A DNA stretch of 64,000 nt from Liolophura sinensis (taxonomy: Eukaryota > Mollusca > Polyplacophora > Chitonida > Chitonidae): contig NC_088305.1 of the NCBI RefSeq assembly GCF_032854445.1, positions 18,525,717 through 18,589,716 of the forward strand, given 5' to 3'. This document shows positions 1 to 29,495 of the stretch, piece by piece. The translations under genes and the position numbers were made by a program. Every line of letters begins with the position of its first letter. Positions within the stretch are counted from its first letter, which is position 1. Below the pieces are notes generated by a model. The model made no database searches, was not told the origin of the DNA, and saw only the letters and a program-made list of their open reading frames with translations.

Positions 1-197
1 TTGGAAGGATAGGTCTAAATTACGCACCATACATTTTATCATTCATTACCTCGTGGTTTTGTGACATCAAATTAAAAGTAAACATATACAATACCAGTGG
101 AACATAAATATGATGACGTGTATAACAAAATAGCAACTCCAAAACAAAAATTAATTTTCAAGATTTTAATATTAGACTTTAATTAAGCGATGTACTT

Positions 198-348
198 GGG
201 AAAGTCTGCCAGAAACCTGCGGATGGTCGTGGGTTTCTCCCGAGCTCTGCGCGGTTTCCACCCACCATAATGCTGGCCGGCGTCGTATAAGTGAAATATT
301 CTTGAGTACGGCGTAAAACACCAATCAAAAATATAAATAAATAAATAA
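198..348 (+). mobile_element. SINE-A copy (tRNA-headed lophotrochozoan SINE), 3' two-thirds
   Basis: Contains the body blocks ctgcggatggtcgtgggttt, ccaccataatgctggcc, and gtgaaatattcttgagtacg, and ends in an (AAAT)n tail. The tRNA head is missing. Confidence 0.9.
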
Positions 349-544
349 GTGATCGTCATAAGTACTTTCTTCGAAGTTATTTTTACAATAAAATATATAT
401 ACCGAGTTGTTCAATATTTCAACTACATCACGATGCAAATGTCTCAAGGTAGGTGTACATGCACTTGGCCTTCTTGTGGTAGGGCGAGTCCATGCCACCT
501 GAGTGTTGCCACCATTGAAGTATCATGCCGATGACACCAAGCCC

Positions 545-682
545 CAGTTGTTCAAAAGTGTATAAAGACTTAAACCCAGTATTATCTTTAGTCCAGACTA
601 AAGTGTTATTTACTTAATTAAAGAACGAGACTAGTATTAACGTTTAAGCCTGGCCCAGCCTTAATACACTTTTGAACAACTG
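545..682. mobile_element. Short MITE with 22-bp terminal inverted repeats
   Basis: The ends cagttgttcaaaagtgtat and the complementary acacttttgaacaactg mirror each other across 138 bp, with further partial palindromy inside. It is non-coding and non-autonomous. Confidence 0.75.
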
Positions 683-716
683 TCCTCATACATGTCACTT
701 CACCAAGTCACATTAT

Positions 717-886
717 ACTGACACCGGGCCAACCAGTCCTATGTCCTTGGTCTGACCTCTCGGTGCTGAGCGTCAAGCCAGGCAGTAGAAGGTACCATTT
801 TAATGTCTTTGGTATGTATGACTGAGTTTGATCCCAGGTCTTCCACTTTCTGATGAACGCGATGACGATTAGGCCACCGAAGAAGT
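717..886 (-). mobile_element. SINE-B copy with tRNA-like head
   Basis: Minus-strand copy of the second SINE family: accgggccaaccagtcct at one end, ctgagcgtcaagccaggcag in the body, and a B-box-like gtttgatcccagg before ttaggccaccg. Other copies lie at 34580-34972 and 45745-46095. Confidence 0.8.
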
Positions 887-1400
887 CCTATGTCCAGCAT
901 TAGCATCTTGAGCATTTAAGCACTGTTGATTATTCAGTATACACTTATGTGTAAATCTTTATTTACACCCGAATAAATCTATACAATATTACATATACAC
1001 TATATTACATTATAACGCTATATACAAACAACGATAATACTGTTTTCTGATTATAACATATTTTAAAATACTACGACATAAGACTATAACAATAACATTG
1101 TTTTTCGCATGGCATAGTTAGGCACCCCATTGTCTGTTCTAAATATCCCACGTGCTGCTCAGACCTCCCGTTGTATGTCGATGTCTGATGCCACGGGGAA
1201 TTATCCTTACGGATTATGATTCTTAATATCATACTTAAGCGGACAAGAAACAATTGTTTTTTCTGACTTTTTGTTTTTCTTTGTTTCAGTACATTCGTGT
1301 TGACGGTAACATGAAGTCCGGTGGCATACACTGATTAATCACCGTAATAAGGGTTATCTTCTCCTTGTGAAGAGGATTATGAGAGTGTTTATAATAATGA
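887..1400. other. Unique AT-rich intergenic DNA
   Basis: No gene, repeat or clear element recognised. Confidence 0.6.
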
Positions 1401-1500
1401 TGGGGTTTCCTCCCACCATAATACTGGCCCCAGTCGTATAAGTGAAATATTCTTGAGTACGGCGTAAAACACAAATCAAATAAATAAATAAAATAAATAA
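1401..1500 (+). mobile_element. SINE-A 3' fragment
   Basis: Body from ggtttcctcccaccataat through gtataagtgaaatattcttg to an (AAAT)n tail. Confidence 0.88.
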
Positions 1501-4500
1501 TCACGGTGTAACATTAACCAATTCCGCGTGCTAATTAATGTACACATGGGTGCTTTTGCTTTGTTTATTTTGTTTTCTCTTAAACACAACTCGCACAAGA
1601 AAACATCATTCCAACTTGTACCATTTAACATCAAAAAATCTTTAGTCCAAAGGCAATAGTTTTAAGGGAAAATATATTCTTTATTAACACTTGACTTATG
1701 CTTGGGTAGTTGTGCGTTAAATAATTAGGAAAACCTTTTTCACAGCGCATTTTAAGACAACATATGAACTTCAGCCAAACAAATGTTCCAATTACGTATG
1801 CAATCTTATGGCATAAATATTTTGGATCTATGCGATTTCTTTGATATGTTTTAATTAATTACGCTGATTAGAAATCGTCGTTTGTCACACGGTAGTATAT
1901 TTTCGGCAATCGGCCAGCATATGTTTATGTCAGTGTTGTTTGTAAACTCAAGACATTTTCCCACAGTAATATAGATGACCTTGTTTTGACAATATCGTTT
2001 GGGCACAGTAACAACCATGTCTTTGTGGATATAGAACAACGTAAACTACAGATGATCATGGTGAGATTTTTCACGCCTGTGAGAAGACAGACTGCGACGT
2101 GACCAAACCAAATTTGGCCAACGCAGACAGAAGAATTGAGCCGAAGGGAGGCCACCCTGTCATAACTGCTGATTTTTTCCCACGCGTATAAGTGCAATGC
2201 TCAGACCACATCTTGACACGTCTCGAGGAAAGGTTTAACCATCAATTAATCAAAGATCAGCTCATTTTGTTCTTTAATTAAGCCGTTAATTCGTCATCTA
2301 AACACATTCAGACAGAAAAATAGCCCTGCACGTCGTTTATATTCGACCCTCACTAATGCCGTCTTCATGAAGGCAGCTTCAAGTGCCTTTGTTCCCGTTG
2401 TTTCTCCGTGGGCTTTCAGTTTCAAATGAAGAACAATAAGGGAAATAAGGCGGTATTTTATTAAAGTAAACACAAACCTTGTGCTTTTATAAAACAGTGA
2501 CGCAGAGCCTAATTCAGAATATTAAACACAAAATTATTTGGACTATAACAAACTCAAGGCCAAAGGTATAAAATCCGCCATTATACAGACAGGACTACAA
2601 ATATTGTCCATGTATATAGGGCTCCTTTAGGTTTACCCGTCATGTATTCCGGACGAATTATTGGCAGAGCAGTTTACGCTCTGAATTACCTGTACAACAC
2701 AAAGAAAGGATGTATAGCCCAAGGGGTGAATTAGAGAGAACGGAATCAGAGTAATTAGTACAAGTGTTAATTTATTTCTCAGGAAAGATAACCACACGCG
2801 TGTACTTTTACAACACGTCGTCATAAACATAAATACTATTAATTACATCAATTAACGGAAAGTAAGTTTTTTCATGCATATGCTATAGATATTCGAATGG
2901 AATTATCGATTAGAATGTTATACTTATCGTTGAAAAAAATAAACCTCTGCTTGTAAGTATTACTGCTACAAGTAATTTACATAAGTATGTTGTTACACTG
3001 ACTAGAATTTTTCACTGCTATTAATGTTCACATGATCATCACATCACACATCATTTCATGTCATACAGCTCCATGTGTGTTTATTTTATAGTTTTTGTAG
3101 TCGTGATATATTAGTTATGCGCAGTCCTCCGCCTGCAATTATTAACGACTATCCTCTATACATGTGACAGAATAGCTGTCACAGAACGCAGTTTTAATTT
3201 CCATGTTTATAATTAAAACATGTTTATCTATATGATCATAGACCCTAGAAGTGCCAGATATAATCTTCCTTGTTAGCAAACAACAAGGTAATACGTGTAT
3301 GGTACTTGATGCCACGGTGCCATGTTGAACTCTATTGTCTCTTTTGTGCGCTGTATACACTAAACTTATTGTACAAACGATTAAATGCATAAGCTTTCGT
3401 GCTAAGGCTATGCAAGCAGCTTTGATGGGCCATGTCGGAAGCCTAGTTAATGCGCTCAAGGGTGCCAGTTGCCCCCACTGGGCTACTCGTCAAGGCTTTA
3501 ATGCAGTACGTGTCACAAACTCCCTGCCACCAGCGACCAGCTCTTTGTAAACTGATCCATTGCCTGCAGTAGGTCTTGCTACCCGCACAGTCCGTGTAAC
3601 ACACACACAAAATATTTCTTGTTGCTTTTGTTATAGATGAGTTTACCTACGGTGTGTTAGAGGCTATAGAGGGGATTTGGGGCAAAAGATCTATATCAGA
3701 CTAGTCAGAATTCCCGTATTTATGCAGTACAGAACAAACTATTTTAGTAAAATCTGACCCATACCTGTACTATTTATAGTGTTAAAATGATTCTAGAGTT
3801 GGAAAAATTTAAAACGCCACTCGCTTTATGTAAATGTTAGGAGCTTATTTGTACTTAGGTTTGGGTGGGTGCTTTGATTAAAATTGCTTATATCTGTAAG
3901 GGTTGCACGTCGTGTAAATCAAATAAATCAAATAAATATCTGCATGTGTTCCATGAAAGTCGTATAGCAACCGGTGTGGCGTGTAGCATTGTATATATTG
4001 CACGTATATATTGCACATATTTTGCACGCATGTGTGAAGCGGTCTTGTGTAGCAAAGCACATATGACATCCTACGAAAAAAAAGAAACATATTTCAAACA
4101 ATCGAGCTATGTGTATGGCGACTGTCATGGGAAGGTATGGTCAGTTGGATGTGCAACAAATGTCAAACTTTCCATATGTGCACCGCTGCACGGCACGCGT
4201 TGAAGAATAATATCTGATGTCACGCGAGCGATTTCGTCAGTCACATCTGAAACCGATCTCCCACGCGATGCCAGCGCAGTCTGGATCCGCTTGTGACGGT
4301 GTTTTGCCTTAGGGCTGTAAGCCAATGAAATCAAACATGACAGGTGTCGTTATGCTATCCTCGAATTGTTGTTGTTGTTGGCTGTTGCGTATCTAAGTAA
4401 ACTATTAATATGCTTTGCGCATACCGCAAGGATTTACCGCAAGGAGCAGGAAGTGATAAATGGTGTGAAGTGAAAAGGGCAAATGGCTGATTTTTTTTGT

Positions 4501-6584
4501 GAGGGGGCGGGGGCAGAATTCTAAAAACTGTGGAATTATCATCTATTTCAAGGCTAGACATTTTGTGAAAAAGTAATTTTGTCGGAAAAAGTTTTTTGCT
4601 TAAAAATATTATTTTTCATTTAAATCTTACTCACGTATATAATCTGCTCACGTGACCAAATGGAGAGATTGTGGATGGTTTAAAACATGGCGGTAAATGT
4701 TTATTTAAAATAAGCTGTTAGTATCTTGAACCAGTTATATAAAGTACAGACTACCATGGAGGAAACAAGAAAGATAACTATATTCAGTCTTGGCGGAAAC
4801 AAGCAATTTAAAATTACATTACAGCTTGCAAACACTCATTGCATGCTTAACATTGTTGTCATCCACATTCCCACAACATTTAAAATTCGCATTGTTCTAT
4901 CGTTGTAAGACTTTGGAAATGTTGATATTTTAACATTTGCGTTTAAGAGCTTGGTATGATGTCAAACTATGTGAGATTGGGAAAGTTTTGCTCTTGATGA
5001 CTGGATTACAGCTTGAGTATAGAACCAATCCCATTATTATGTGAATATGGTATATTTTATTTGAAGAACAAAGCTAAAATGATCGGTTTTCGTTTCAAAT
5101 AATCTTGACTAACATGTCATTCAGATTCATGCCCTGAAAATTAGTAGGATAGAGTCATTCGTATCTTGGGTGGTATTTAAAAAGTAATCAATCATCACTT
5201 AATGATAACCAATCAATCAACCAACTGCCCACGGCTTAACATATACGGTGTATTATCGAAATCAGTTTGGTGTCCGTTCTATCTGTATCAAACGATGCTG
5301 TAGCAGAATATCTTATTTGGGCATATTCCCAGTATAGATTATTTGCTTCGTTTTAGATAATGATTTTCGTTTTAGGTAATCAACAGGTAAACAATAACAG
5401 CGTGGTAGCATAGCTGCGTGTATCCCCGTGTCCCCTCAGGCTCTATGTCGTGCGTGGCCGTATACACACCTCTGGCCAAGTCAACAGGTCCACGTGCCAG
5501 GCTTTACCCACAATGCTCCGGCGCTTGCCAAAATGTCATGTCTGCAACGTGTAATTTGATGTATTGATCCCTCAAAGGCGATTAAATAGGCTGTGATATA
5601 TTTTAAAACAGGAGATACTTTTGGATTAGGTGATTCAAAATTATCATCGTCATTTTTTTTTAATCAGGAGAGTTAGCAATGTGTAATGTCGAAATGATGA
5701 AATTGTTGTCAATGTAACAAGTAACGGTTTAAAAAAGCATTAAAAGTAAAATGAAAATACGTTTTTTCAAGAATTACAAAACAACAGCAACACCAATAGC
5801 ATGATTCTTAACATCTAAATAATTTGCACCAAATTAACACTTTTATATTTACCACGAGGGTTTTGTTGTCGCCACACGCTTGCTGTGAATCAAACAGATG
5901 CATGGACATATGTTAGATGAAATGCAGTATTCGTCACACCTTTTCACAAAAGCTGAGCGTGCTTAGAGGGTTTGAACCGAAACTTTCTATAATTCGCCCC
6001 CTCAGCTTACGGTCCTTAAGGTACTATTTTTTTGGGGTTTTTTTATTGAATGGATATAGATGACAACAGGTCGTGTTGATAGCAGATTATACAGGGTAAC
6101 ATCTTTATATCCGATTTACTAATTACTCTATTACATGTCAGTCACATACTCTTATTAGTCCGCTCTATAGAGAAAGCATTATTTGCCCAGAAAAAACTTC
6201 GACATTCTTTACTGAAATTGTTCATTAGGAAGGCCAATAAAATGCGTTTGTTAGATATTATTATATACAACAATACCAACAACGGCTTATACAGTCGTTT
6301 TAGGAGTACATGTACAAATTAAACATCGATCTTTATTTACGAACAGTTTTGTCATACTGGTTGGGGTAAAATCTGCCAAAAGACAACTAGTGGGCTTTCC
6401 TGCCAAAAGTGGTTTAGAGTTTGTTTAGATCACAAGATATCACATAGTCGCCTTGTCTGATAACAAAACATTCAAGCCTAGAAGACAGTCAGGCTCTGTA
6501 ATATGTATGGTATGAGTTTAATGGCGGTTTTGTTCAATAGAAAACAATCGGCATATACTTGATACTAAGTCTGTTTAGTTCCCC
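1501..6584. other. Unique AT-rich intergenic DNA
   Basis: Only short, random-looking open frames. There is a GTT-rich patch near 4365 and poly-T runs near 4490, 5655 and 6028. No recognisable gene or transposon. Confidence 0.6.
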
Positions 6585-6960
6585 GCGTTCCCACGCCAAA
6601 CCACACGGATCTAATTGGAATCTTTGATCCGAATGATCTCCTTTGTTTTTTAGCAAACAACTGCTGATCTTGCTTTACGACAGAGCATTCATTAGCAATC
6701 AGTCAAGTGATGCTTTCCACAAACACTTAACAGCTGAATTGGCACCTTGGTCGGCCGTTCTTGCAGTGTTGTTTTAGTCCAGTTGTAATTAAAGGAGTTT
6801 CAGTGACTTTTCGCACCTCGTTCTCCACATGATGGTAACAGAGCCATGTTCGCTGCTGGGCTCAGGAGAATAACAACCATCAGTATTTCCCACGCATGTA
6901 CAACCGATGGGAACTACAATGTCATCGCTACGAACACTGGCATTTGCTTTCCGTTATAAA
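6585..6960. promoter_or_regulatory. Candidate cis-regulatory block upstream of copy A
   Basis: Repeat-free, higher-complexity sequence with two TTCCCACG sites (6588-6595 and 6887-6894), which fit the CSL/Su(H) consensus. It also holds a CTTTGTT Fox/TCF-like site, a CAACTG E-box and several TAATT/ATTA homeodomain cores. Regulatory status is inference from motif density only. Confidence 0.25.
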
Positions 6961-9359
6961 CTCTCTCAAATTTCACATTTCAAATCTACAAATCGCCAAG
7001 ATATATGGCTGAAACATTCCAGACTTGACATCAGGCAATTAAAGCCCCATATTGTTCTTTAATACCACTGCATTTTACTTTATATATATTATATATACGT
7101 TATACCCACCGAAGTTTGCCTTTGTTTCATTTCATAAACAATTTGTTAGTACGGCATAAAACTATTATAATACGTACAAATAAATAGATATAATGGTCTG
7201 ATACAGTTCTGAAATGTTCGAAATTAATTCATATGCCAGAACAAAGTTCAAATTATAAACAGTTAAAACAGCTTTAAATAAGTTTGGACTGATGACCTTT
7301 AGGTGTACATATTGAAAGCACATGCATAATACGGCAACTTATTCTTACCAGGTGAAATTGAAAACAGCAGTTATGTAAAATTAATTTTACTTAAATATAA
7401 ATATTAATGCATCATTATTTAAATCTATTCGGATTTGTTTTCTTACCAATTTATTATTTCTATAATTATATTGCTTGCATTTAGATTAAAAGCGCTACAT
7501 CTCGTACGATTCTACAAATAATATAAATGTGATAGTCTAGAAGTGAGTGTGAAGAGGGAGAGCCAGTGGAGTAAATATTAACATTCGTATATACCTTTCT
7601 TGGCATTTTTAACAAAAGAGTGTGGCTTTCTAGGACTCCTTGTCGTGCGAATGTCTTACTTTCTGTAGGTTTTATAAGGGAGCGTGGCAGGGATATTTTT
7701 AAATGCGAACCGTTTCCTAAAGAAATGTGCAATTTTTCTCCGAGTGATGCGGGGCGCAAAACTTGTTGATCATACATCACTGTGAGAGGCAAGAGTAAAC
7801 AGGTGTCAATTACTCTAGATATGCATATCTTTCAATAGAACATTTCTGACAATTCGCTCGTTTTTATTTCATTCTCCCTTGGCATTTGTCCTGGCCGTTT
7901 AAATGTCTCTGTTATATTATTTTGTGTTTTTTGCCGTTATTGTTCTCTTCGGGATCGGGATATCGATCGACCGTGCCGAGACTGTCACGCTGTCAGCCAT
8001 GTTGTTTAGACTGTGGTGTCAATCGATATCCCACAGCGAGTCCACTGGCTGCGCGCGCGCGTGGGAAACTGAATGTTTGACTGGTGGCCATGCCCACAGT
8101 CTCGTCCAGCCACGCGTGACTTCTGTGGTGAAAACGATACTAATTGCACTACTTACATAACAATAACTGTGTCGTCTTTGCTGTCTCACAAAGTAACCCA
8201 ATTAACCCTGTTTCAGAAAAGACTTTTAATTGTTTTGTGTTAAAGTGTAGTTTTACACTAAATAGTGAAAAAGTGTCAATAGTAACTACAGTCTTATCTC
8301 CTTAATTATTCAGGTTAATGATTTTTAATGGTAGACTACCTGTTGATTGTTTCACTTACGCGACGGTCATCTGATATATGGAAACACTGAGGAAATACAG
8401 AGGAAATTTATTATAAGATTTTAGGCTAACACCTTTGAAGTGTTGCGACCTTTGCCGACTTCACCAGGCCGGATTTAACTTAAGTCAAACTAAGAAATGT
8501 TTATTTTTCTTAACACGTTAATTTACACGTAGGCAAACTTAAACAAGTGTTAGTTCAAAATTTGAAATCACTGGCCCGTTAGCGGTGTATTGTATCGAGG
8601 TTTTAAATCTGACTTTAAATTTGAAAATCATGTTCATGCATGGAGTTATTTGTGTTTTTTTTTTCTTATATAAATCGACACCAAAATATATGGTTTTTAA
8701 GGCCACTAAAATATACGCACACACCCGCCCACTTGCAATAGCGAGTATCCTGGTTGTGGGTGTTTGTTTTCGACAAATGTTGACAAGAGCTCAGTCATTG
8801 GCCCTACCTCATTTTTTGTTAACGATAGACTCAACAACTGTTTTGAAAAAGCAGCACTTTTGTTTTTCATTCGGCAAGCAGTGTAGGCAGTTCTAGTGAA
8901 TAACGGTACATAAACTGTTCTATCCAAAACCATGTATATGGTACGTACCAATTTTCTGTGTAGAATTAAAGTCGCATAATAACTTTATTTGGTCCCAAAA
9001 ACATCTTATAAATTAGGGATGGGTGGAAATATTTACAATTGTGATGTTTTGTTGGTTAGATCTGATTGCTGTACAAATGTACCAAATGCCTTCTTGTCTT
9101 TGTTCTACTAAATTTACTTCGGTAATCTCGCACAAAACTGCATACACAATAAAATATTGACATTCTGTCATCATAGTAAGAAGAAGGCGTATTCGACGGG
9201 CGGGTCACTGGGTACTATATGACGTAACCCAATACCCGCTAACTGCAGCGCAATATTGCAACTGAAACGACGGAATTTGTGGACTATGCCCATCTTTATT
9301 TTGCTAAAATTTCGACAAATATGACACTAGAAAACAGATGCACTGAGATAACTTCGTGA
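6961..9359. other. Unique intergenic DNA
   Basis: AT-rich at 7080-7500. A short CG run lies near 8050. A CSL-like gtgggaa occurs near 8062. No gene or repeat family recognised. Confidence 0.55.
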
Positions 9360-9533
9360 CACCCAGGGGAGGTACCGTTGCCAGCCGTGCTATCTGACCC
9401 GTCCTCTGACGTACCGGCCGTCTTCCCACCTCCCACCATCTGCGACGACCGCCCGGTGGTAACCATTGTCCAGGTCCCCCACTCCTGCTCTCCCTGGACC
9501 GCGCAACGCCCGTTGAAATGTGACGCTGCCTAA
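9360..9533 (+). other. GC-rich island with open frames, possible coding remnant
   Basis: In an AT-rich setting this stretch is markedly GC-rich. On + it encodes about 57 codons, Pro-rich and ending DAA before a TAA at 9531-9533, and the minus strand is open too. I recognise no family. It could be the C-terminal end of a decayed transposon or retrogene, or a promoter-like CpG patch. It abuts the 146-bp array. Confidence 0.25.
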
Positions 9534-9971
9534 ACAACAGCCACTGTATTTTGTATCCAAACAAACTGAAAACAAACAGAGTGGGCCATTTTTACGTGAG
9601 CCAAAAACGTCTAAATATTTTTCCAACTTTGTGGGCGATGTTATTGTCATTTAGATGTCTCTTCATCACAATGATTCAAACAACAGCCACTGTGTTTTGT
9701 ATCCAAACAAACTGAAAACAAACAGAGTGGGCCATTTTTACGTGAGCCAAAAACGTCTAAATATTTTTCCAACTTTGTGGGCGATGTTATTGTCATTTAG
9801 ATGTCTCTTCATCACAATGATTCAAACAACAGCCACTGTGTTTTGTATCCAAACAAACTGAAAACAAACAGAGTGGGCCATTTTACGTGAGCCAAAAACG
9901 TCTAAATATTTTTCCAACTTTGTGGGCGATGTTACTGTCATTTAGATGTCTCTTCATCACAATGATTCAAA
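9532..9971 (+). repeat. Tandem array, three copies of a 146-bp unit
   Basis: Units start at 9532, 9678 and 9824. Unit 3 lacks one T in its ccattttt run. Units are otherwise nearly identical, suggesting recent expansion. The period is not a multiple of three, so open frames across it are incidental. Confidence 0.95.
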
Positions 9972-11818
9972 GTGTCCGAAAAATTTGAATGGTGCTACTT
10001 TTTGACATCGCTCTGGCGTCTATGTCGACCACCCTTTGAATTAACCTGTCTGCTAGGTTACATGTAATGGGATCATTGTAAAAAATAACGGTTTCTGTGT
10101 GTGAGCCACTGGAATTCAAACGGGGCACAGCATGACCTCGCTCACGACCTCATGCATGCGTTCCAGAAGCACAATCCCTACCAATTCCATGGGCAAAAAA
10201 GACAAAAAAAATTTGCTAAGAGTATTATATACGTCTTATTATATGTCGCAATAGCTGTGAAATAAATAACATTCATTCAAATAGAGATACTTGACATGTC
10301 TCCTATATTGGGTAGGTATTATGTGAACGGATTAAATATACATGCCATGATAGTTATGTTTAAAATACAAAGTCATACAGTTGTCATTCTGGATTAGACC
10401 ATAGTTGAGGCCACAAAGTAGATCCGCTGATCGAAAAAGAATTACTCAGCTGTTCCGATGTATGATGACCGAAACACGTTATAGACGTTCTACAGGACAA
10501 ACTGAATCTGTAATCCCAATTGTTTACAAGGCATGTGGTAATCTACAATCCTCGTTGATCAGAAATATGTATCTCCGTTGCGATTTTAATTGCAACTGTT
10601 CATATATCAAACTTGGCGATTTTATCCTGTGCAATGCATATACAGCCCCTATATTTTTCAAAGGGGTTCCGAATACAAGACTCAAGCAAGGATAACAATT
10701 TTGTGGAAGCGATAAAACCAGTGGGGGTTCGAATATCACAAGCAGTTAAATCACCATATGCATGATTTTCGCCGGCACAGTGCTGTAGTTGTAAGAGTGA
10801 AATAAAATGGGCGTTGGAATGATATAACTGTATGTCATAAACAAGTCTCAACAGCTGACATGCAAAAACACTCGAAATGTATCGCTTTGAGAATGACGTG
10901 CAATATATAGCGATGAGAAATAATACTCTGCGCCGGTGTGGTTTTTCCTATTTTATGCTTCAAATGCTTAACCAGTCCTTAATCAGCAATAAACTCCCCT
11001 ATTAATGTGTCTGAGCTGCAAACCGATCCATGAATCAGTAAATAAACTAATTACGCAAAGGTTTAATGATGCCGTTCTTGATATTGACGTTTTCTTTTTC
11101 CGTACGATATAATGGAGTCACACTTTTTCCTTAGAAGACAAATTGCATTGAGGAGCATTTAAAGTAAAATATGAAATATTACCAAAGCGTTTTTGGTAAT
11201 TTATTCTCTTTAAGCGATGAAGCGGTCTCGTAAAACACCTGTTCTTTTCAAACACAGTTAGGTAAAATTATCTCTGTTTACTTTCGTTTGATTGGTAATC
11301 GTTCATTAATTGCAGGTGAAAGGGAAAACAACACTTGAATTATTAATAAATGAAAGGTTTCAAAAAAGTACTCATTTGTTGATAATCGGTTTGAATAGAA
11401 GTGCTTTTATAAGACAATATACAACAAAGCATTCCCCCACTTACCTAATTGATTATAGCATTGCCGCGGCTAGGTTGCAACAATCCGACGAAAGCTGGGT
11501 GAGTGGGAGAGATTGTGCGGCCCTGCAGGGGGGGCAGGTAGAGGACATCTGCAGTGGTCTTCTAGTCCGCGGCGTTTTTTCATCTTTCCTTTCTTTCCAG
11601 AGTTTGTTTTTACAGCCATAACGTCTTGAGACAGATGAACAGGTGGATGAAATTGTAGACAGACACCAGCTGCATGAGAAAAACGAGAACACGGAAAAGA
11701 AAAGACAAAAATCCCATGTTGCCCACGTAGGTGTAGCAGAATAAAAGACCAGTGACTAGGAAATCTTCACAACGCTCTTTTTTATGGTGCAATGTTATTC
11801 AAAGATCAGTCGATAAGT
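9972..11818. other. Unique intergenic DNA
   Basis: No supported gene. A G-rich run (11529-11536) and a stretch with a splice-donor-like GGGTGAGT near 11498 were noted but have no partner signals. Confidence 0.55.
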
Positions 11819-11969
11819 GATACCATAATAAGAAATTTAAAAAGAAGCAAATGCAGATAACATAAACAACAGAAGGAGAGATACATTGTCTTAATATTCA
11901 TTTTATTTGATTGATTGATTGATAGATTGATTGATTTTTTTTCATTGAACTGTAACGTTGTAGCCTACA
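11819..11969 (+). repeat. 151-bp direct repeat, left copy
   Basis: Identical by eye to 13058-13208. It contains a ttgattgattgattgatag stretch and ends in gcctaca. Together the two copies bound the 1.09-kb composite insert 11970-13057. There is no TG...CA end and no target-site duplication outside, so these are not convincing LTRs. Confidence 0.9.
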
Positions 11970-12089
11970 GATACAAAACACAGTGGCTGTTGTTTGAATC
12001 ATTGTGATGAAGAGACATCTAAATGACAATAACATCGCCCACAAAGTTGGAAAAATATTTAGACGTTTTTGGCTCACGTAAAAATGGCC
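11970..12089 (-). repeat. Inverted single unit of the 146-bp repeat
   Basis: This is the reverse complement of most of one unit of the array at 9532-9971, joined directly to the left inverted arm at 12090. It carries the acacagtgg variant found in units 2 and 3, not the acagtgg-preceded-by-t variant of unit 1. Confidence 0.88.
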
Positions 12090-13001
12090 AATCAATTGGT
12101 CAATGAAATAACATTAAAATGAATTTGTGAGTTTATCAATCCGCATGAGCGCAAATCAATCAAACCGTCCAATCCTTCTATTCTTTACTCAGTCAACAGG
12201 TGGGTATAATGGTAGTGAAATGAGTCGATCGGTGCATCAGTCACCATAACTGCATGCAAATCAACCAAACCAAGCAATCATCCTAATATGTACAAAACCT
12301 ACAAGTTAAATAGCTGTAAATAAACCAGTCCGTAAACCAGTGCATCAGTCCGCATGTACGCAAATCTAAAGCACACAATAATTCTGTCATTTACTAAACT
12401 AACTGGTCAGAAGATAAGGTATACCAAATCTTCTTTCCTGGAAACACGTGAAAGGCAATAAGAAACTGAGACAAGTCGAAAACTTTCATTCGAAGAAGCT
12501 TTTTATAAATAATAATAACCAAACTGTACAAAATTTCACATACAAGTGGCCCTACAAGTTAAATAGCTGTAAATAAACCAGTCCGTAAACCAGTGCATCA
12601 GTCCGCATGTACGCAAATCTAAAGCACACAATAATTCTGTCATTTACTAAACTAACTGGTCAGAAGATAAGGTATACCAAATCTTCTTTCCTGGAAACAC
12701 GTGAAAGGCAATAAGAAACTGAGACAAGTCGAAAACTTTCATTCGAAGAAGCTTTTTATAAATAATAATAACCAAACTGTACAAAATTTCACATAATAAA
12801 TATACAAACTCTTTGTCATAAAGTCTCAGTATATACTTTGTACAAAATTATAGTCTTTATATACAGATACATGCATTGCTACTTGTAAGGCTTGCTTGAT
12901 AAAAACATGTAAATTCTTAACAAATCTCTCACATAAATCATTTCACCGGATATCGGTTATACAAGTGTGCATAATGACGCTACGTTCAGACAAACACATA
13001 A
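12090..13001 (-). repeat. Left arm (912 bp) of the inverted repeat, with internal 244-bp duplication
   Basis: This is the inverted copy of 15815-16474. Within it 12298-12541 is repeated at 12551-12794 (period 253) with a 9-base junction acaagtggc. Removing one unit leaves 659 bases, equal to the right arm. Read on the + strand it is antisense to the copy A 3' region. Confidence 0.93.
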
Positions 13002-13057
13002 CAGAGATACAAACACATAACAGAGATACCTGTGTTGTGTACCAAACACAACACAGA

Positions 13058-13208
13058 GATACCATAATAAGAAATTTAAAAAGAAGCAAATGCAGATAAC
13101 ATAAACAACAGAAGGAGAGATACATTGTCTTAATATTCATTTTATTTGATTGATTGATTGATAGATTGATTGATTTTTTTTCATTGAACTGTAACGTTGT
13201 AGCCTACA
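13058..13208 (+). repeat. 151-bp direct repeat, right copy
   Basis: Identical by eye to 11819-11969. Immediately after it, cacttatacggcggtggc resembles SINE-A body sequence. The original uninterrupted locus therefore probably continued from gcctaca into a SINE remnant here. Confidence 0.9.
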
Positions 13209-14248
13209 TTTGTTTCACTTATACGGCGGTGGCAACGCTTATGTACAGCAACACTCGAACTGTCTCAGTAGAAACTGACAAACTGTTGCCATAGTGTCAG
13301 CTACCCTAAAGCGATTTTCTTGATCTGTTCACCTATTCTTGCTATTGTTGTTAATAAGTAAATAAACAAAAACACGATTTGTTTATCTCTCCAATTTGCC
13401 ACCATAAAAAAATTTACAGCATATACATTATCATTGGCTACAAACATATCAAAGCATGCGCACTGAGAGAGCAACAAAGGCGTGAATGTTTGCGATATTA
13501 CAGATCGCATTTTAAATGAGATATGTTCTTTAAACCAAGGATAATACGTAACAGTAGACACACCTTGAATGTGTACGGGTGTATTTCTAGTATTGTAACT
13601 TCTGTAAGTATATAAATATATACAGATATACATGACCAGAATGATGTTTTGAAACACTGGGGTGTAGTGAGAGGGTAACGTATTTTCTTTTTTTGTGTGC
13701 TGTTCCCCTGCGATTTATCAACAACAGATATAGCGGATACTGATCTTGGATGAAATTTGATATTCGGCTATTCGTAGCTACACTTGGGATTGCGTGATGT
13801 TTACTTTGAAAGATTCAATGTTTTTTTTACTGTAATTGAATACCAGGGGTTTGTGTAGGAGAAGAGTTTGCTGAGCATGTCGATCGGACCAGGATAAGAA
13901 CTACAGTGTTGCGAACCCTTGAACTGGAGGAGTTCGCAAGACCGAGACTTCCAATAAAACTCTCACCTCACAAGGCGCATATTGTCTCGAGTATTATACC
14001 CTGAAATAACGATGAAAGCCGATTTCTATTTGATTGTAATAGGCCAGGACGTATTGCTGCCAGTATCGAGTGACACTAGCTATGACAGCGAGTGAGGGTT
14101 CGGTGTACACGCTAAATTAGCCGGCCATAGTCCCGCTAGAGATCCAGTCATGCGAAACCGTCCCAGAGTTGGAGGGGGGAAATGCAGCCACTCGTTGACG
14201 AGTTGTCGTTTGTTGCTTTTCGGCTCCCGGGGAGCTAGGTTTGTGGGC
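13209..14248. other. Upstream region of bHLH copy A
   Basis: Starts with a SINE-A-like remnant (13209-13235), then unique sequence. GC content and E-box density rise after about 14100 toward the promoter candidates. No separate gene seen. Confidence 0.55.
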
Positions 14249-14284
14249 GGGGCACGTGTCAGTCAACTGGTTGTCGCGTGCCCC
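14249..14284. promoter_or_regulatory. Inverted repeat with E-boxes upstream of copy A
   Basis: GGGGCACG (14249-14256) is mirrored by CGTGCCCC (14277-14284), giving an 8-bp stem around a 20-base centre. The block contains CACGTG and CAACTG E-boxes and lies about 115 bases upstream of the P1 TATA box. It could be a bHLH-bound or autoregulatory site; this is inference. Confidence 0.35.
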
Positions 14285-14367
14285 GTCCAGCCCTCACCCC
14301 ACCGCTCGATTAGAAAGCGTACGGCAAGCAGGGCATCACGTGACAGCGGTTATCTGCGTCCTGCTGC

Positions 14368-14403
14368 TATAAAAGTTTGTAGTTGGTGCAATGTCTGCAT
14401 TCA
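14368..14403 (+). promoter_or_regulatory. Candidate distal core promoter (P1) of bHLH copy A
   Basis: A perfect TATAAAAG at 14368-14375 places a start at about A14399, in GCATTC, a partial initiator match. A consensus 5' splice site AAG|GTGAGT follows at 14456-14464, defining a possible 60-base non-coding first exon (14399-14458) with no ATG. Acceptors before the CDS are weak (for example after TTGTCAG at 14684), so splicing is uncertain. A GC box and two CACGTG E-boxes (14253 and 14339) lie within 150 bases upstream. Confidence 0.5.
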
Positions 14404-14651
14404 CGGCTTAGGCTTCCTTGCTCAGCCCTCACCTGTGCATTGAGAGTACCTCACTAAGGTGAGTCCTCATTCCGAACTCCACTTACCTCGATTTCCCTTG
14501 AACCGTAACCGTTAAAAGAGGTTGGTGTTGGATTACGGACATTGACTAACCCCCGTACACTTGATGAGGACCCCGCGCCCTGGGAGCCCAGCGAGATCAA
14601 CAGGTGGGATCGTCACTAACCAATCGGTGTTGATCGCGAGGCTGTGGTGCA

Positions 14652-14687
14652 GATAAAAGCAACTGATCGACCAGGAATTGTCAGTTC
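14652..14687 (+). promoter_or_regulatory. Candidate proximal core promoter (P2) of bHLH copy A
   Basis: A TATA-like GATAAAAG (14652-14659) lies exactly 31 bases upstream of the A of a TCAGTTC initiator (A at 14683). This gives an 84-base 5' UTR. A CCAAT box at 14620-14624 sits about 60 bases upstream of that start. An E-box CAGGTG lies at 14601-14606. A GGATG similar to a downstream promoter element starts at +29, one base off the usual position. Confidence 0.55.
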
Positions 14688-14712
14688 GATCTTGTCTGAT
14701 CATCGCAAGTGG

Positions 14713-14736
14713 ATGAAAGGTGACCAAATTTTGTAA
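14713..14736 (+). CDS. Seven-codon upstream ORF (uORF) before copy A
   Basis: An ATG at 14713 opens a 7-codon frame (MKGDQIL) ending at the TAA 14734-14736, 30 bases before and in the same frame as the main start. The base at -3 is T, a weak context, so leaky scanning to the main ATG is expected. It would lie in the 5' UTR made from P2. It may tune translation, but such short uORFs also arise by chance. Confidence 0.3.
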   Translation: MKGDQIL

Positions 14737-14766
14737 CTGGACTTTAAACTTAACATCTCGTCCATA

Positions 14767-15651
14767 ATGAGCAACGAAGATATGTCTATGGCTCCGGCCG
14801 GTTGGTCTAGCGATGTTTTCACGAACTACGATGACTTACAGCTAGGCGGTTTCGATTTGGACCTTGGATTTCAGGAAGGTATACCGGATGTATTTCACGA
14901 CACTGTCCCCAACCTAGCAGTGGACTTTCACACGTACCCGCCCTCCCATGAGTCTGTAGACCTGATGACTTTGTCGTCAGCTGCAGCCTCAGACCTTTGC
15001 GATATCAGCCATTCTCACGCCAGTTCTATTAGTCCATTCCAAGACAGCAGCGTTTCCAGCGTACCGAGTTCATCGTCAAGTCCCGTGCAGTTTGAATCGT
15101 GGCCACTGGACAGCAGTCCTGTCAACGTCTTACCGCAGGGCTACCAACATCCCCAGTTTTATGAGACGAACTTCGTAAACGGTAGAAAGCGACGGGCTTG
15201 CGACGAACCGTGCCGGTTACCCCAGATGCCCGGCAATGTTGCTGTGCAAGCTGTTAACTTTCCCGTCTTTTCTACCGATGTCGCCAGTAAACCTAAGCGG
15301 AAAAGGGTCCAAAACGCACGCCAGAGGAAAGCAGCGAATGTACGGGAGAGAAAAAGGATGTTTCACCTCAACGAAGCCTTCGACAGCTTGAAAACCAAAG
15401 TACCCACCTTCAACTACGAGAAACGTCTGTCGAGAATCGAAACGCTTCGGCTGGCGATGACTTACATTTCCTTCATGTCGGACCTACTAGCAGGCAAGAA
15501 ACCCAGCGAGATCTCGTTGAAGCCCGACGGCATGCTCAGCTCTGACAATTCCTTCACACTGGAAGACTTAGAAAACCTGAAACAATCTATTGCATCTTCG
15601 TACAATTCCGATGGCACGGAAAGTTCCGAATGTGGCTCGTCCAGTTCTTGA
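14767..15651 (+). CDS. FERD3L: Fer3/FERD3L-type bHLH transcription factor, copy A (294 aa, single exon)
   Basis: Seen: the basic region lies at residues about 184-199 ([12 protein letters not shown] core), helix 1 at about 199-212, a loop with the signature [19 protein letters not shown], and helix 2 to about residue 241. The E and R residues of the ERxR motif that contact E-boxes are present. The loop/helix-2 string [14 protein letters not shown] is what I associate with Fer3/FERD3L; PTF1A/Fer1 instead carry YEKRLSKVDTLRLA. A basic cluster KPKRKR (175-180) could serve as a nuclear localisation signal. Residues 21-43 are acidic and hydrophobic, resembling an activation domain; 80-120 and the C-terminus are Ser-rich. 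Known of the family: nuclear E-box binding as a heterodimer with E proteins, acting in neural progenitors. The start is the first ATG after an in-frame TAA at 14734-14736, with A at -3. The whole domain sits in one exon. Helix 1 carries H where canonical members have N (MFHLNEAF), so this copy looks the more derived of the two. Confidence 0.92.
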
Positions 15652-16474
15652 TGATCACGTGAGCACGTAGTTGGTTTAAGCATCATAAGTGCATCAAAGA
15701 CATTTACTGTTTTTATACACAACACATTCAGTCATAAAGCTTTGAACGTCGCCTCAGGCGAAATTATTCTCTCGTTTTTGTGTCAAGTATTATGCAAATT
15801 TAGTCATCGCACATTTATGTGTTTGTCTGAACGTAGCGTCATTATGCACACTTGTATAACCGATATCCGGTGAAATGATTTATGTGAGAGATTTGTTAAG
15901 AATTTACATGTTTTTATCAAGCAAGCCTTACAAGTAGCAATGCATGTATCTGTATATAAAGACTATAATTTTGTACAAAGTATATACTGAGACTTTATGA
16001 CAAAGAGTTTGTATATTTATTATGTGAAATTTTGTACAGTTTGGTTATTATTATTTATAAAAAGCTTCTTCGAATGAAAGTTTTCGACTTGTCTCAGTTT
16101 CTTATTGCCTTTCACGTGTTTCCAGGAAAGAAGATTTGGTATACCTTATCTTCTGACCAGTTAGTTTAGTAAATGACAGAATTATTGTGTGCTTTAGATT
16201 TGCGTACATGCGGACTGATGCACTGGTTTACGGACTGGTTTATTTACAGCTATTTAACTTATAGGTTTTGTACATATTAGGATGATTGCTTGGTTTGGTT
16301 GATTTGCATGCAGTTATGGTGACTGATGCACCGATCGACTCATTTCACTACCATTATACCCACCTGTTGACTGAGTAAAGAATAGAAGGATTGGACGGTT
16401 TGATTGATTTGCGCTCATGCGGATTGATAAACTCACAAATTCATTTTAATGTTATTTCATTGACCAGTTGATTG
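15652..16474 (+). other. Presumed 3' UTR/downstream flank of copy A, containing the right inverted-repeat arm
   Basis: There is no clear AATAAA in the first 800 bases after the stop; an ATTAAA occurs near 16539. The segment 15815-16474 is AT-rich and is repeated, inverted and almost identical, at 12090-13001 upstream of the gene. If the transcript extends past 15815, its 3' UTR includes the arm. Confidence 0.5.
15815..16474 (+). repeat. Right arm (660 bp) of the inverted repeat flanking bHLH copy A
   Basis: By eye, the reverse complement matches 12090-13001 almost base for base, apart from a 253-bp internal duplication in the other arm. Mismatches I found are single bases, for example at the TTATAGG/CTACAAG position and near the outer end. 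The arms are separated by about 2.8 kb (13002-15814) containing the gene. Confidence 0.93.
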
Positions 16475-16672
16475 AGCAAATATCAGAATGACATGATGGT
16501 TGATATGCACACCCTCAGACTGATAAAATTATCAGCTCATATTAAATGTTTCTTGAAGAGCCGCCCAGGTTTTCAAGCTTTCGTGATTGGCAATTTGAAC
16601 GACCGCATTTCAGCGGTTGTGTGTGGACATTTGCTAACTATAACATACACTGTCGTCGCTAATCTGGTTTTG

Positions 16673-16673
<1 letters not shown>

Positions 16674-16722
<49 letters not shown>
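16674..16722. repeat. (TA)n microsatellite
   Basis: About 49 bases of uninterrupted TA dinucleotides, 200 bases past the right inverted arm. Confidence 0.98.
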
Positions 16723-16726
<4 letters not shown>

Positions 16727-17118
16727 GGCCTAATCATGCACTGATTTTATTGCCATTTTTTTTTTAACTTTTGTGACTTGTCGGTTTATGAATCTTCCTA
16801 TAGTAAAATCGATAGATAAGAAAAAATTTGCGAAAATTCGAGGAACAGATCCTAACTTGCGTAACCTTCAGCCAAAAAGTTAGACTTGTTAGTTTTTTTG
16901 TCTGTTTGTTCCACTGTAAAAGACAACAAAGCGGAAAAAACTGGATACAGCCTATACGGTCTGTATGTGACCCGTTTGTCTCTTTCGTTTAATGGTGATA
17001 TGACTTTGTCCCCTTTCCAAAGGACTTCTCTGATGCACACACGCATTTGCACGTAGCACGGGACCACGTGGCACAATTTTGTATATGGGAAAGATCTCCA
17101 GAAGTTTGTCCATTCAGC
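16723..17118. other. Unique intergenic DNA
   Basis: Nothing recognised. Confidence 0.55.
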
Positions 17119-17167
17119 CTATTAAGCACGACGTTAAACCCCAAGCACTCATTCACCCACTCACTCC
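17119..17167 (+). mobile_element. V-type SINE 3' end
   Basis: cacgacgttaaaccccaag followed by a cactcattcacccactcac tail, the 3' end typical of this second SINE tail class. Related fragments lie at 18785-18955 and 34373-34415. Confidence 0.75.
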
Positions 17168-17229
17168 ATTCACCCTATCTATCTTTTGGGATGTTTAAAG
17201 AAAGTTCGCATTGAGCCTATTCAACTAAG

Positions 17230-17362
17230 TATATTTATTTACTTATTTATTTATTTCATCGGTGTTTTACGCTGTACTCAAGAATATTTCATTTATACGA
17301 CGGCGGACGGAGGAAACCGGGCAAAGCCCGGGAGCAACCCACGACCACGATTCTATCAGCAC
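17230..17362 (-). mobile_element. SINE-A copy
   Basis: (ATTT)n tail, then tcggtgttttacgctgtact, cttgagtg-complement body, and gaaaccgggcaaagcccgg. Confidence 0.9.
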
Positions 17363-20140: not shown

Positions 20141-20262
20141 CTGGTATACTCAAGAATATATCACTTATACGACGGCTGACAGCATTATTATGGAAGCAAA
20201 CTGGACAGAGCATGAGGGAAACCCGCGACCATCTGCTGGTTGCTGGTAGACGCTAAGTAACT
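20141..20262 (-). mobile_element. SINE-A copy
   Basis: Starts within actcaagaatatatcac and runs to gaccatctgctggttgctgg. The tail is missing. Confidence 0.85.
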
Positions 20263-24141: not shown

Positions 24142-24300
24142 ATTTAATTATTTGATTGACGTTTTACGCCGCACTCAAGAATATTTCACTTACACGGCGG
24201 CATTCGGCAGTATTGTGACAGGAAACCGGCCAGATTCCGGGGGAAACCCACGACCATCCGCTTGTTGTTGACAGACCTTCCCATGTAAGGCCAGAGCATT
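24142..24300 (-). mobile_element. SINE-A copy
   Basis: tttgattgacgttttacgcc, cactcaagaatatttcactt, and a cccacgaccatccgcttg block. Confidence 0.9.
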
Positions 24301-26220: not shown

Positions 26221-26586
26221 GACCCAGCCGAAGCAAACATTGCAGACTCCAAGTACCTGCACGTGCAAGTTCAAACCAGTTAGAATCTCGTCTTCAACAA
26301 AATACTGTATAATTGGAAAATCTGACGCATGAAATCTTTGTTGGAGCATTTTTTTTTTTTTTTTTAAAATACGGTCAAACGGTCATCGTGCTTGAGCTAA
26401 ATACTCTTCAGACGATACGAACAACTACTGCATAGTGAGTAAAACCAAAGAAGCGACAACGGTTTTGTCTATGTAGTTAGCAACACACGTGACTCCTGAA
26501 ATAGACTTTTGCTCAAACTGAGTACATGAATAAATGCATCAACTTAGATACCCTCTAACACCTTTGATTAAGATGAATTATAAGTT

Positions 26587-26765
26587 TTATCTATTTATGT
26601 ATTTTATTGATGTTTTACGCCGTACTCAAGAATATTTCACTTATACGACGGCGGCCAGCATTATGGTGGGAGGAAACCGAGCAGAGCCAGGGGGAAACCC
26701 ACGAACATCCGCAGGCTGCTGACAGACCTTCCCACTTAATGCCGGAGAGGAAGCCAGCATGAAAT
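26587..26765 (-). mobile_element. SINE-A copy
   Basis: ttttacgccgtactcaagaa, acgacggcggccagcattat, and gaggaagccagcatga at the end; the tRNA head is truncated. A family-C fragment (tttattagacctcactggtc) follows at about 26800-26835. Confidence 0.92.
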
Positions 26766-26835: not shown

Positions 26836-29495
26836 ATGTTGTTTTGTCACATTTAACGAAAATAACACGAAAACAATACACACGGACAAGGCTTTGCGCA
26901 TACTTGTAGTCCATCAACAAGGGCTCTGGTTTATGTAGTTATACGATATATCCAACGCACTACAGCAATGCGAGCTCTTTTAAATCATTATCGGGATTTG
27001 CATGTCATTTCACGACAATATCCCCGTCGTGTCCTGCTGTGTGCAATAAACGTCGTCATGTTTGATGTATCGTTATATACAGGTATATATGATTTACTGT
27101 TATTTCCAAACGGATACTAATAATATAGCTGTACATGTTAAAAAAACAGCACATTGCACATTTGGGAAGGTTTGTGGAAAGCTTTATAGGTACAGGGGCC
27201 AAAATAAGCAGCAGTGTCTTAAAGAATATCAATTCACTTAAGTGCAACTACATGTACTGAATTGAACAGAAGGTCTGTGTTTGTTTCCTATGCACTGGTA
27301 CCTATACTTTCGAAATCGTCTATATGCATAGTTTCTGCAGTAGTTGGACCTTAGGTTTTAGCTTCAGACCATTACTGTGAAAACCAACGATTATTCGTCG
27401 GGAATAAGACCTAAGAAAAACTTCTTGCTAAGTTATCTTTCCATTATAATTTTTTTTTCTTGTACAATCCCCAAATGAGCAAAAAATACAACTACACAAT
27501 ACCCAGATTGTGAGGTGAATATTTTGTGTGTGTGTACACATATATTGAATAAGAATTTTATACGTTCCTTGCAGGCACATTTTGATGTTCGTGGCCACTT
27601 TAATGTATTTTTCACGTGTATAATATCAAATATATGCAATCTTACAAAAAAATACATTAAAATGATTTTTAATCAGAATATTATGGTTTTAATGTAACTT
27701 TTGATTCCATCGGTTTCTTTTTGAAGAAATTTTTTTTCGAACCAAAATATTTTCACTAAAGAATGTGTGCAAAATGACATGTAATTCACTGGTGCTGGTG
27801 TCAGTTCTACGGACGCCCCACTCTTCCCTTATCCTATTTTCAAACTTCAGTGTGGTTGGAATCCTGAATAGATTGAAAAAAAACACCAACTTTCCCAGGA
27901 CCTTCTAAGATTTACAGGCACACATCTTGTGGTAAGAACTTCAAATAGCTCCTCACTCCACCTGAAGACAGTGACTGAATACAACGATGACGCAACGGGG
28001 CGGTACTTTTGTCATAAGCTTGGGTCACACAACACAGTCAAACTCGTAGACTTTAGCACGGATTAGCTCGCCGGTTATAAATTCTCTCCACTTGAAGAGA
28101 TCAACAGGTACGGTCATCAAACCCTCCTTATAATTGTGTTTCAACTTAATTGTTTGCCTATCACCTGGGTTTTCTCTTTTTTCTTCTAAAAGTAAGAAGA
28201 TTCCTGCTCCGCCCTGTAACTGGTTTCAAGCGCTCAAGGACCTTTGCTTTTGTCGCCTCGATATACAGTCGATATTGTCCGGGAACATTTTAAGTGCCGA
28301 TCTTTTGAAGAGACGGAATTAGGCGGGGAAGACAGCGTTAAGCGTAGGACAAAGCAGCGATAGATTACACATGCGCAAATCGTTCATGTGGGTCCAAGAC
28401 TTGAGTTTTGATTTGCGCAAGACCTCCGGTGGCGGTTTGTGTTGAACGTTCTTTTGGAAATTGGTTTTACGATCGATTGCTGACTCGCTACGTCCATTTT
28501 GGTTAGCGTTTTGATTTAGGAATGTATGTTTTGAAGCCTAGATCCGAACTGAATAGTGCTGGGGCACTGATTGGGTAATAATTCCTACCAGACATTGTCT
28601 GTTGTTTATACACTGTAAATTTCTGCACTGTAACTTAAAATATATTTTATGCATCGGATAGAACTGAAAACCTTTTTGTCCCCTTCCCCTCTACCACATG
28701 GCGATTACCAAGAAAAATAAATGCTAAGACCGCACTGCAGCAACAACAGCTCAAAAAATGGTGGTTATTGCGGGATGATATCTGTATAAAGATCTTGCAT
28801 GGTACCGCGCGAGAGTTTGGAGATGTGTATTTTAGGGGTTGGAACTCACAAACTGTCTGGTCCTCGGAATAAGCGTGCATATACATGACAGCATTTCTCC
28901 CTTTCATAAAGAAAACTTTATTATGGCAACCATGACGAAGTGCTGAATCTGTACCAGCCCATGTGGCTGCAGTCCACAATTAAATCCTCATTTACTTACA
29001 TGTTAACGTTTGTCCTCAAAGCATTGTCCCTAAATCTGCGAGCCATGAACTCTTCGGGCTTGATAACCATCGTCCCCTAAGACAACTCCATCCAAACTTT
29101 TGATAGAGGTTGACACATGACATTTTTCACAAACAGCTGATAGGGGTCAATCTTACTCAGGTAGACAGAGGCCGGTGAATCAGGACTTTTCACTACTTTT
29201 GCCTAGTGTGCATCCGCCTCCATTTCGTGAAAAACATTAAAATTTAAACCAAGATTGAAACTTTGAAGCCTGCTCTGTAAAATTTAACAAGCAGAAAAAT
29301 TGAAAAAGGACAATCCAATGGACCAAAAGAGAATATATCTAAAATACCAGTGAATCGCATTCGTAATCCATGCAGCCGGAAGCATTAATTGTGGACTGCA
29401 GTCTTTTGATAGGAATCCAGTATGGCTGACTGGTTATTGTTTTGATAGAATGATGACGTTACGCACTGAAAATTACGTGACTAGGACACAGCAAT
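26836..29495. other. Unique intergenic DNA
   Basis: AT-rich at 27400-27900. The 28080-28530 part is more mixed and repeat-free. No gene recognised. Confidence 0.5.

Follow-up and report, generated by a model that had tools for sequence, protein, structure and literature searches.

A patchwork of inverted local copies upstream of a bHLH gene in Liolophura sinensis looks like the scar of an error-prone DNA repair event

Introduction

How does a gene come to lie between two long, nearly identical and mutually inverted stretches of non-coding DNA? The question is raised by a 64,000-nt stretch of the Liolophura sinensis genome (NCBI RefSeq GCF_032854445.1, NC_088305.1, 18,525,717-18,589,716, forward strand; hereafter the window), in which an initial annotation had described a bHLH gene enclosed by paired inverted arms. 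Here, we analyze the structure of this locus, using searches that cover the 609-Mb assembly. Upstream of the gene lies a 1,239-bp composite insertion (positions 11970-13208 of the window), a patchwork that includes backwards copies of neighboring DNA and looks like the scar of a single, fairly recent, error-prone repair event rather than a structure centered on the gene.

Results

The left arm (12089-13001) reproduces 15815-16474 as its reverse complement. The inner ends of the arms are 2813 nt apart, and the loop between them holds the bHLH gene (Table 1). The near identity of the inverted non-coding arms, their coordinates (correct to within 1 bp) and the 2.8-kb gene-containing loop had all been noted in the initial annotation, and all are borne out. 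The arms differ at T 12096 versus C 16467 and at C 12302 and C 12555 versus T 16261; since the latter two share C against one donor T, there are 2 independent differences in 660 bp. Judged by this count, the arms are probably recent, which agrees with one half of the earlier suggestion of a very recent event or ongoing gene conversion; a single copying event would be enough, and conversion appears unnecessary. Within the 14-kb region, exact inverted matches reach 446 bases, whereas no inverted run exceeded 20 in 30 first-order Markov simulations. The arms are of unequal length (912 bp on the left versus 660 bp on the right) because 245 bp are present twice in the left arm, as 2 units (12298-12542 and 12551-12795) that are identical to each other and separated by 8 nt. 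The left arm is, in addition, joined to an inverted 120-bp copy of a tandem array located at 9.6-9.8 kb.

The polarity of the copying can be read from the right arm. An old degenerate repeat (16156-16343 / 16362-16540; E 1.7e-6; score 25 versus a maximum of 13 in 100 simulations) runs across its outer end, and the right arm is therefore the uninterrupted original. The insertion left the bHLH gene undisturbed, position 13208 being 1558 bp before the ATG. The gene itself has not moved, and the lasting consequence of the insertion is that it now sits between inverted repeats. No second (allelic) copy of 13209-15700 was found in the assembly, and neither Rfam matches nor tRNAs were detected in the 64-kb window.

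Table 1. Features of the locus, in window coordinates.
Feature	Position	Strand	Description
Tandem array, source of piece 1	9532..9971	+	146-bp unit, 3 copies
Flanking direct repeat, left copy	11816..11969	+	154 bp; ends 3' of a (TTGA)n microsatellite
Insert piece 1	11970..12089	-	Inverted copy (120 bp, 100% identity) of part of the 146-bp tandem array; donor 9584-9703 or 9730-9849
Insert piece 2, pass 1	12089..12542	-	Inverted copy of 16021-16474 (454 bp, 99.56% identity); shares 1 bp (12089) with piece 1
8-nt filler between passes	12543..12550	.	Longest local match overlapping the filler, 9 bp
Insert piece 3, pass 2	12551..13001	-	Inverted copy of 15815-16265 (451 bp, 99.78% identity); template overlap with pass 1, 245 bp
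Longer filler	13002..13057	.	53-56 nt, depending on the chosen start of the flanking repeat
Flanking direct repeat, right copy	13055..13208	+	Exact from 13058; unique upstream sequence of the gene resumes after it
bHLH gene	14767..15651	+	Intact, 294 aa, single-exon ORF; found at full length once in the assembly
Source of the inverted copies, original copy	15815..16474	+	3' flank of the bHLH gene, possibly 3' UTR

The inserted DNA consists of copies of recognizable donors that are still in place: a piece of the array, then two overlapping passes of the 3' flank, that is, several donors, one of them used repeatedly. The three sources together span 6.9 kb, and divergence is low in all pieces (0 in 120, 2 in 660 and 0 in 151). 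Beyond 9532-9971 and the insertion, the tandem array was not found in the genome, and we therefore rejected the idea that the 120-bp piece derives from a dispersed satellite. A genome search with the arm sequence scored both of its 2 candidates and gave 3 matches, none of them outside this locus, although the lack of a match elsewhere does not prove rarity. A retrocopy of the 3' UTR was also rejected, because the joints show array sequence and filler where poly(A) would be expected, and because the array piece lies 6 kb from the transcript.

The outer junctions overlap by 0 bp (11969/11970) and 1 bp (12089). The 2-5 bp microhomology at switch points that marks MMBIR is absent from these outer junctions, and the inner switches carry filler. 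The longer filler contains the repeats expected of snap-back and slippage in SD-MMEJ, namely, a perfect 11-bp hairpin (stem 13030-13040 / 13046-13056), a 21-bp direct repeat (12990-13010 / 13009-13029) and an 11-bp direct repeat (13020-13030 / 13053-13063); its fold has a z-score of -5.65, with 0 of 200 shuffles being equally stable. Searches for donors of the fillers yielded longest matches of 9 bp (8-nt filler) and 11 bp (longer filler), which is near chance. Two more specific readings were dropped. The 8-nt filler could give a third reading of donor base 16261, through the 7-bp repeat TACAAGT, but a 9-bp match elsewhere in the donor explains the filler equally well. Part of the longer filler could have been copied from 15716-15726, but an 11-bp match at 28027-28037 is just as long.

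The two copies of the 154-bp flanking repeat show one mismatch and are exact over 151 bp. Among the genome matches listed, only the copies at 11816 and 13055 are full length, the other 38 being confined to query positions 77-136, the microsatellite part. Removal of the 1,239-bp insertion leaves a clean empty site, the two possible joins giving the same 761-bp stretch except for one base. The same sequence thus borders the insert on both sides of a clean empty site, as in a tandem duplication with an insert in its junction.

A second locus with an inverted copy, 8 nt and a partial re-copy turned up in 1 of 20 sampled 10-kb stretches. At this site (C1, approximately 72.998-73.003 Mb), a 1.6-kb inverted copy at 99.1% identity is followed by 8 nt and a 225-bp second pass of the same template. 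Alignment of the arms over 1,623 positions shows 12 substitutions and 3 gaps, and one base is carried by copy 1 alone, being missing from both copy 2 and the source. No flanking direct repeat longer than 8 bp was found there. The 1.6-kb segment partly resembles old dispersed repeats: the 40 candidates scored, out of 1920, gave at least 63 more partial matches at 68-88%. One such structure per 200 kb corresponds to about 77 to 17,000 genome-wide (Poisson 95% limits). A 438-bp tandem repeat at 62.3-63.3 kb of the window was examined as a possible earlier example of such an event and set aside, since a partial tandem duplication of the ordinary sort accounts for it.

Discussion

Collectively, these features make it likely that a break or stalled fork was mended by template-switching synthesis and end joining of a Pol-theta/MMBIR-like kind. 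The lesion would have arisen near 11.8-12.0 kb, in the germ line of the animal's ancestry. Its free 3' end may first have been extended on the tandem array at 9.6-9.8 kb and then on the 3' flank of the bHLH gene; it would next have fallen off, acquired a few filler bases and re-copied the same flank from a point 245 bp back. Synthesis on itself or on the partner end could then have produced the hairpin and short repeats, before a last join to sequence that starts 154 bp behind the place from which copying had set out. The product would be a tandem duplication of 154 bp whose junction holds 1.09 kb of templated insert. It was probably made in a single event, in a living germ line, by end joining of the polymerase theta type or replication of the MMBIR type, and presumably has no function of its own. 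This is the best explanation in a comparison within one assembly.

A library or assembly error that entered the consensus, such as an amplification chimera made by a strand-displacing polymerase, is unlikely. MDA chimeras are described as mostly inverted, local and intramolecular (more than 85% of 475 were inverted; PMC1855051), and a similar structure in 1 of 20 random stretches is also expected of a library-wide artifact. However, more than 70% of the chimera junctions reported in that source have 2-21 nt of complementarity, compared with 0-1 bp at the outer junctions here; one molecule would need to switch at least 3 times and go back to its original strand, and would then have to reach consensus depth; and copies and sources carry post-copy substitutions, for example, the base confined to copy 1 and the diverged arms at the second locus. 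Misassembly of two alleles set side by side, which the initial annotation regarded as the main alternative, is highly improbable. Although the identity of the arms is high and the gene region is single-copy in the assembly, so that one haplotype was collapsed or removed, alleles placed end to end predict a direct repeat of long allelic sequence including the gene, whereas here the 3' flank alone is repeated, in inverted orientation, and its copy is fused to an inverted 120-bp array piece from a third place 6 kb away and bordered by the 154-bp repeat. An allelic insertion that is real in one haplotype would be the proposed repair product itself, not an artifact.

An origin in separate steps (an inverted duplication, a later 253-bp tandem duplication and a flank duplication) is quite unlikely: a later tandem duplication would give identical 245-bp units, as found, but all pieces are similarly low in divergence and the second locus also has a partial second pass 8 nt away, a feature more readily explained by the copying itself. 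Scarcely credible is an inverted-repeat (foldback or TIR-like) mobile element carrying the gene, or a functional arm device, such as an invertible switch or a source of dsRNA. The gene is indeed flanked by two long near-identical inverted arms, and antisense to the 3' flank would result if the left arm were transcribed through; dsRNA formation and cruciform-driven inversion, raised as possible consequences in the initial annotation, are speculative. Yet no target duplication abuts the outer arm ends (the longest shared stretch in the 40-bp flanks is 6 bp), the 154-bp repeat lies around the left arm but not the right, genome searches did not find the arm elsewhere, and the arms measure 912 and 660 bp. 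A gene-carrying inverted-repeat element is contradicted by these observations. The two arms do not appear to form a pair built around the gene, as first described: the left arm is part of the 1,239-bp composite with its own flanking repeat, and the right arm is old sequence.

The repair reading can be compared with several known systems. As in TMEJ/SD-MMEJ, the insert is a patchwork from nearby DNA, the filler has short direct and inverted repeats and a hairpin, and there is little outer overlap (PMC8654963, PMC7407515, PMC11292364). Filler with a hairpin and repeated short motifs is the SD-MMEJ pattern given in reviews (PMC7407515), and Pol theta is reported to produce such filler by stem-loop extension (PMC11292364). 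The genome has a POLQ candidate, with POLQ_helical and DNA_pol_A matches on the same strand of C1 within 31 kb. Outer junctions with 0-1 bp overlap are what end joining predicts. Unlike the described TMEJ inserts, most of which comprise tens of bases derived from the flanks of the break, the pieces here are 120-454 bp long and come from 2-4.5 kb away; TMEJ work counted flanking templates within 250 bp (PMC5730883). Insert pieces of 0.45 kb, far longer than the inserts usually described, count against Pol theta. MMBIR fits the size better but usually involves 2-5 bp of microhomology, which the outer junctions lack. MMBIR/FoSTeS shares with the present case several switches, the kilobase scale, inverted local templates and a return close to the starting point that leaves a small duplication (PMC5120786, PMC7407515), and differs from it in the outer overlaps (0-1 bp here versus 2-5 bp) and in extent, the whole event here being just 1.24 kb. 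Because the outer junctions have 0 and 1 bp of overlap, we assign the event to template switching broadly rather than to MMBIR.

Staggered-break tandem duplications, such as rice patch-mediated repair (Vaughn and Bennetzen 2014, as summarised in PMC7407515) and paired-nick fill-in, likewise duplicate a flank around local filler (PMC7407515, PMC8355091, PMC5730883), although the 154-bp duplication exceeds the 43-50 bp overhangs tested in PMC8355091 and the insert is about 1.1 kb. Double insertions in yeast rad27 and RPA mutants also place two fragments of one donor locus at a break with NHEJ-type end joints (PMC11724301). Those fragments are mutually inverted (in rad27, in 15 of 23 complex events), whereas both passes here have the same orientation, an arrangement called very rare in that source. 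In the open-licence literature, we recognized no reports of local inverted insertions of this type from molluscs or other invertebrates.

The copying process may recur in the genome, because the second locus turned up in 1 of 20 sampled stretches. We tentatively raise the possibility, more doubtful than not, that the germ line often mends breaks by backward copying of 0.5-2 kb of neighboring DNA, usually with a partial second pass, and that many genes have come to be enclosed by inverted arms in this way. If so, near-identical inverted arms would be raw material for inversions and antisense transcripts. At the present locus, a strange gene enclosure becomes a readable repair scar, in which the order, direction and donor of each piece can be followed. 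If such scars recur genome-wide, neither selection nor a mobile element is needed to explain the inverted repeats that flank genes in this lineage, and a repair mode known mainly from cancer, mutants and edited cells would be open to study as standing germ-line variation in an animal.

Near-identical inverted copies beside the bHLH gene

The inverted repeat around the bHLH gene (ORF 14767–15651) is real and far beyond chance expectation: its longest exact match is 446 bases, and none of 30 first-order Markov simulations run on this 14-kb region yielded a match longer than 20. The near identity of the non-coding copies reported in the initial annotation is borne out, with the two arm pairs being 99.56% and 99.78% identical and the 660-bp source differing from its copies at two independent positions, one of which (16261) disagrees with both left copies. 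The picture of a gene enclosed by paired arms is not supported: the left arm is a composite rather than a simple arm. Removal of 1,239 bp from this locus restores continuous sequence, with two alternative excisions of that length giving the same 761-bp sequence but for one base. Overlaps at the insertion's outer joints are 0 and 1 bp long.

Components of the composite insertion and other repeats in the window
Feature	Position	Relationship
154-bp block, left copy	11816–11969
120-bp piece		Identical to the reverse complement of 9584–9703 or 9730–9849; donor, three-copy 146-bp tandem array
454-bp piece	12089–12542	Reverse complement of 16021–16474; adjoins the 120-bp piece
8-nt filler	12543–12550	Between the 454-bp and 451-bp pieces
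451-bp piece	12551–13001	Reverse complement of 15815–16265; 245 bp of the 454-bp piece present again
Longer filler, 53–56 nt	from 13002	Between the 451-bp piece and the right 154-bp block
154-bp block, right copy	13055–13208	Identical to the left copy from the fourth base on
Dispersed repeat copies	193–348, 1404–1500, 20147–20251, 24142–24296, 26586–26762, 33259–33397, 34791–34899, 47299–47452, 58562–58649, 61287–61465	
Large minisatellite arrays (three)	36105–36889, 38925–39891, 40858–41459	Periods ~38, 139/278 and 24/39 bp

The window occupies C11:18,525,717–18,589,716 of the assembly (609 Mb, 632 contigs). In this assembly, where match counts are lower bounds and absence of matches is no proof of rarity, the 660-bp source had at least three matches (itself and the two left copies) and the 146-bp array at least two (itself and the inserted 120 bp), with no others found for either. 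Both copies of the 154-bp block were matched, and 38 other matches among those listed covered its microsatellite part only. The assembly search found no second copy of the gene region (13209–15700), which matched only itself. Elsewhere in the window, 62326–63301 holds a 438-bp direct repeat (95.7%) with copies 100 bp apart, the spacer being ~85% like 60324–60422, and the dispersed repeats (~90–180 bp, both strands) are 78–91% alike.

Direction of copying

The right side is old and continuous and the left side is its copy, because a degenerate repeat with a ~206-bp period (16156–16343 versus 16362–16540, 60.5%, E 1.7e-6; raw score 25, with none of 100 simulations scoring above 13) runs across the right arm's outer end at 16474, and also because the flanking duplication brackets the left arm. 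The gene itself has not moved. Its 294-codon frame is intact. The product, presumably Fer3-like by name, has a single Pfam HLH domain (E 1.7e-18); among solved structures, it is similar to the bHLH domains of NeuroD1 and Twist. The right arm may lie within the 3' UTR, although the stretch after the stop codon (15651–17300) contained no AATAAA, only variant hexamers and an ATTAAA at 16541, outside the arm. The window holds another such bHLH gene 34 kb downstream (49236–49553; 71.8% over 78 aa), contig C10 has a cluster of six more relatives spanning 47 kb (21.002–21.049 Mb), and seven weaker ones stand in a row on contig C13 near 29.6 Mb.

A similar locus on another contig

In a control sample of 20 evenly spaced 10-kb stretches of contig C1 (200,000 bases), one of nine repeat pairs (≥100 bp, ≥95% identity) was inverted. 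Extended by 3 kb of adjacent sequence, this second locus, C1:72,998,323–73,003,067, proved to be a 1.62-kb pair (L038 1323–2944 with L036 1447–3067, both stretches of C1) with arms 99.08% identical (12 substitutions, 3 gaps). After the left copy come 8 nt and then a 225-bp second pass that matches the source exactly. Copy 1 alone carries a base change that copy 2 and the source lack, which fits ageing after the event. The case is similar but not identical, because no flanking repeat longer than 8 bp was found, unlike at the first locus, and some of its sequence resembles old dispersed repeats; it had at least 66 matches, 63 of them partial at 68–88% identity (40 of 1920 candidates scored). One locus per 200 kb corresponds to ~77 to 17,000 genome-wide (Poisson), too wide a range to claim abundance. 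Another C1 stretch, L034, carries a 1.6-kb direct repeat (3788–5390 and 8399–10000, 95.8%).

Origin of the insertion

The features of the first locus probably record template-switching synthesis that ended in end joining, with Pol theta as a candidate polymerase. Each feature has a described counterpart in reviews or experiments: patchwork inserts arise by iterative Pol theta rounds (PMC8654963), Pol theta extends stem-loops (PMC11292364), SD-MMEJ involves hairpin and direct-repeat motifs and MMBIR multiple template switches (PMC7407515), staggered breaks give duplications (PMC8355091, PMC5730883), and insertions are local inverted and distant in yeast (PMC11724301) and complex in people (PMC5120786). 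Folded as single-stranded DNA, 12985–13070 forms one perfect 11-bp hairpin (−11.7 kcal/mol; shuffle mean −3.2 kcal/mol, z −5.65, equal stability in 0 of 200 shuffles), around which the motif ACAGAGATAC is repeated (21-bp repeat, 12990–13010/13009–13029; 11-bp repeat, 13020–13030/13053–13063). Sequence matching found no donor for either filler. Three POLQ_helical and six DNA_pol_A matches on the C1 plus strand (55.65–55.68 Mb) point to a candidate POLQ gene; on contig C6, separate POLQ_helical (near 53.23 Mb) and DNA_pol_A (near 76.29 Mb) matches would suit HELQ and POLN or POLG, respectively.

A chimera from DNA amplification, or another library or assembly error, might also produce such a structure: MDA chimeras are mostly local and inverted (PMC1855051), and the second locus could itself reflect an artefact that affects the whole library. 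We nevertheless regard this origin as unlikely, given that the copies carry substitutions and junction complementarity is nearly absent.

As a measure of the insertion's age, the differences between its duplicated sequences (2 in 660 bp, 0 in 120 and 0 in 151) amount to 0.2% divergence over 931 bp (Poisson limits 0.03–0.78%). Ordinary diversity in marine invertebrates is of the order of 1%; should Liolophura sinensis be ordinary in this respect, one would expect such an insertion to remain polymorphic.
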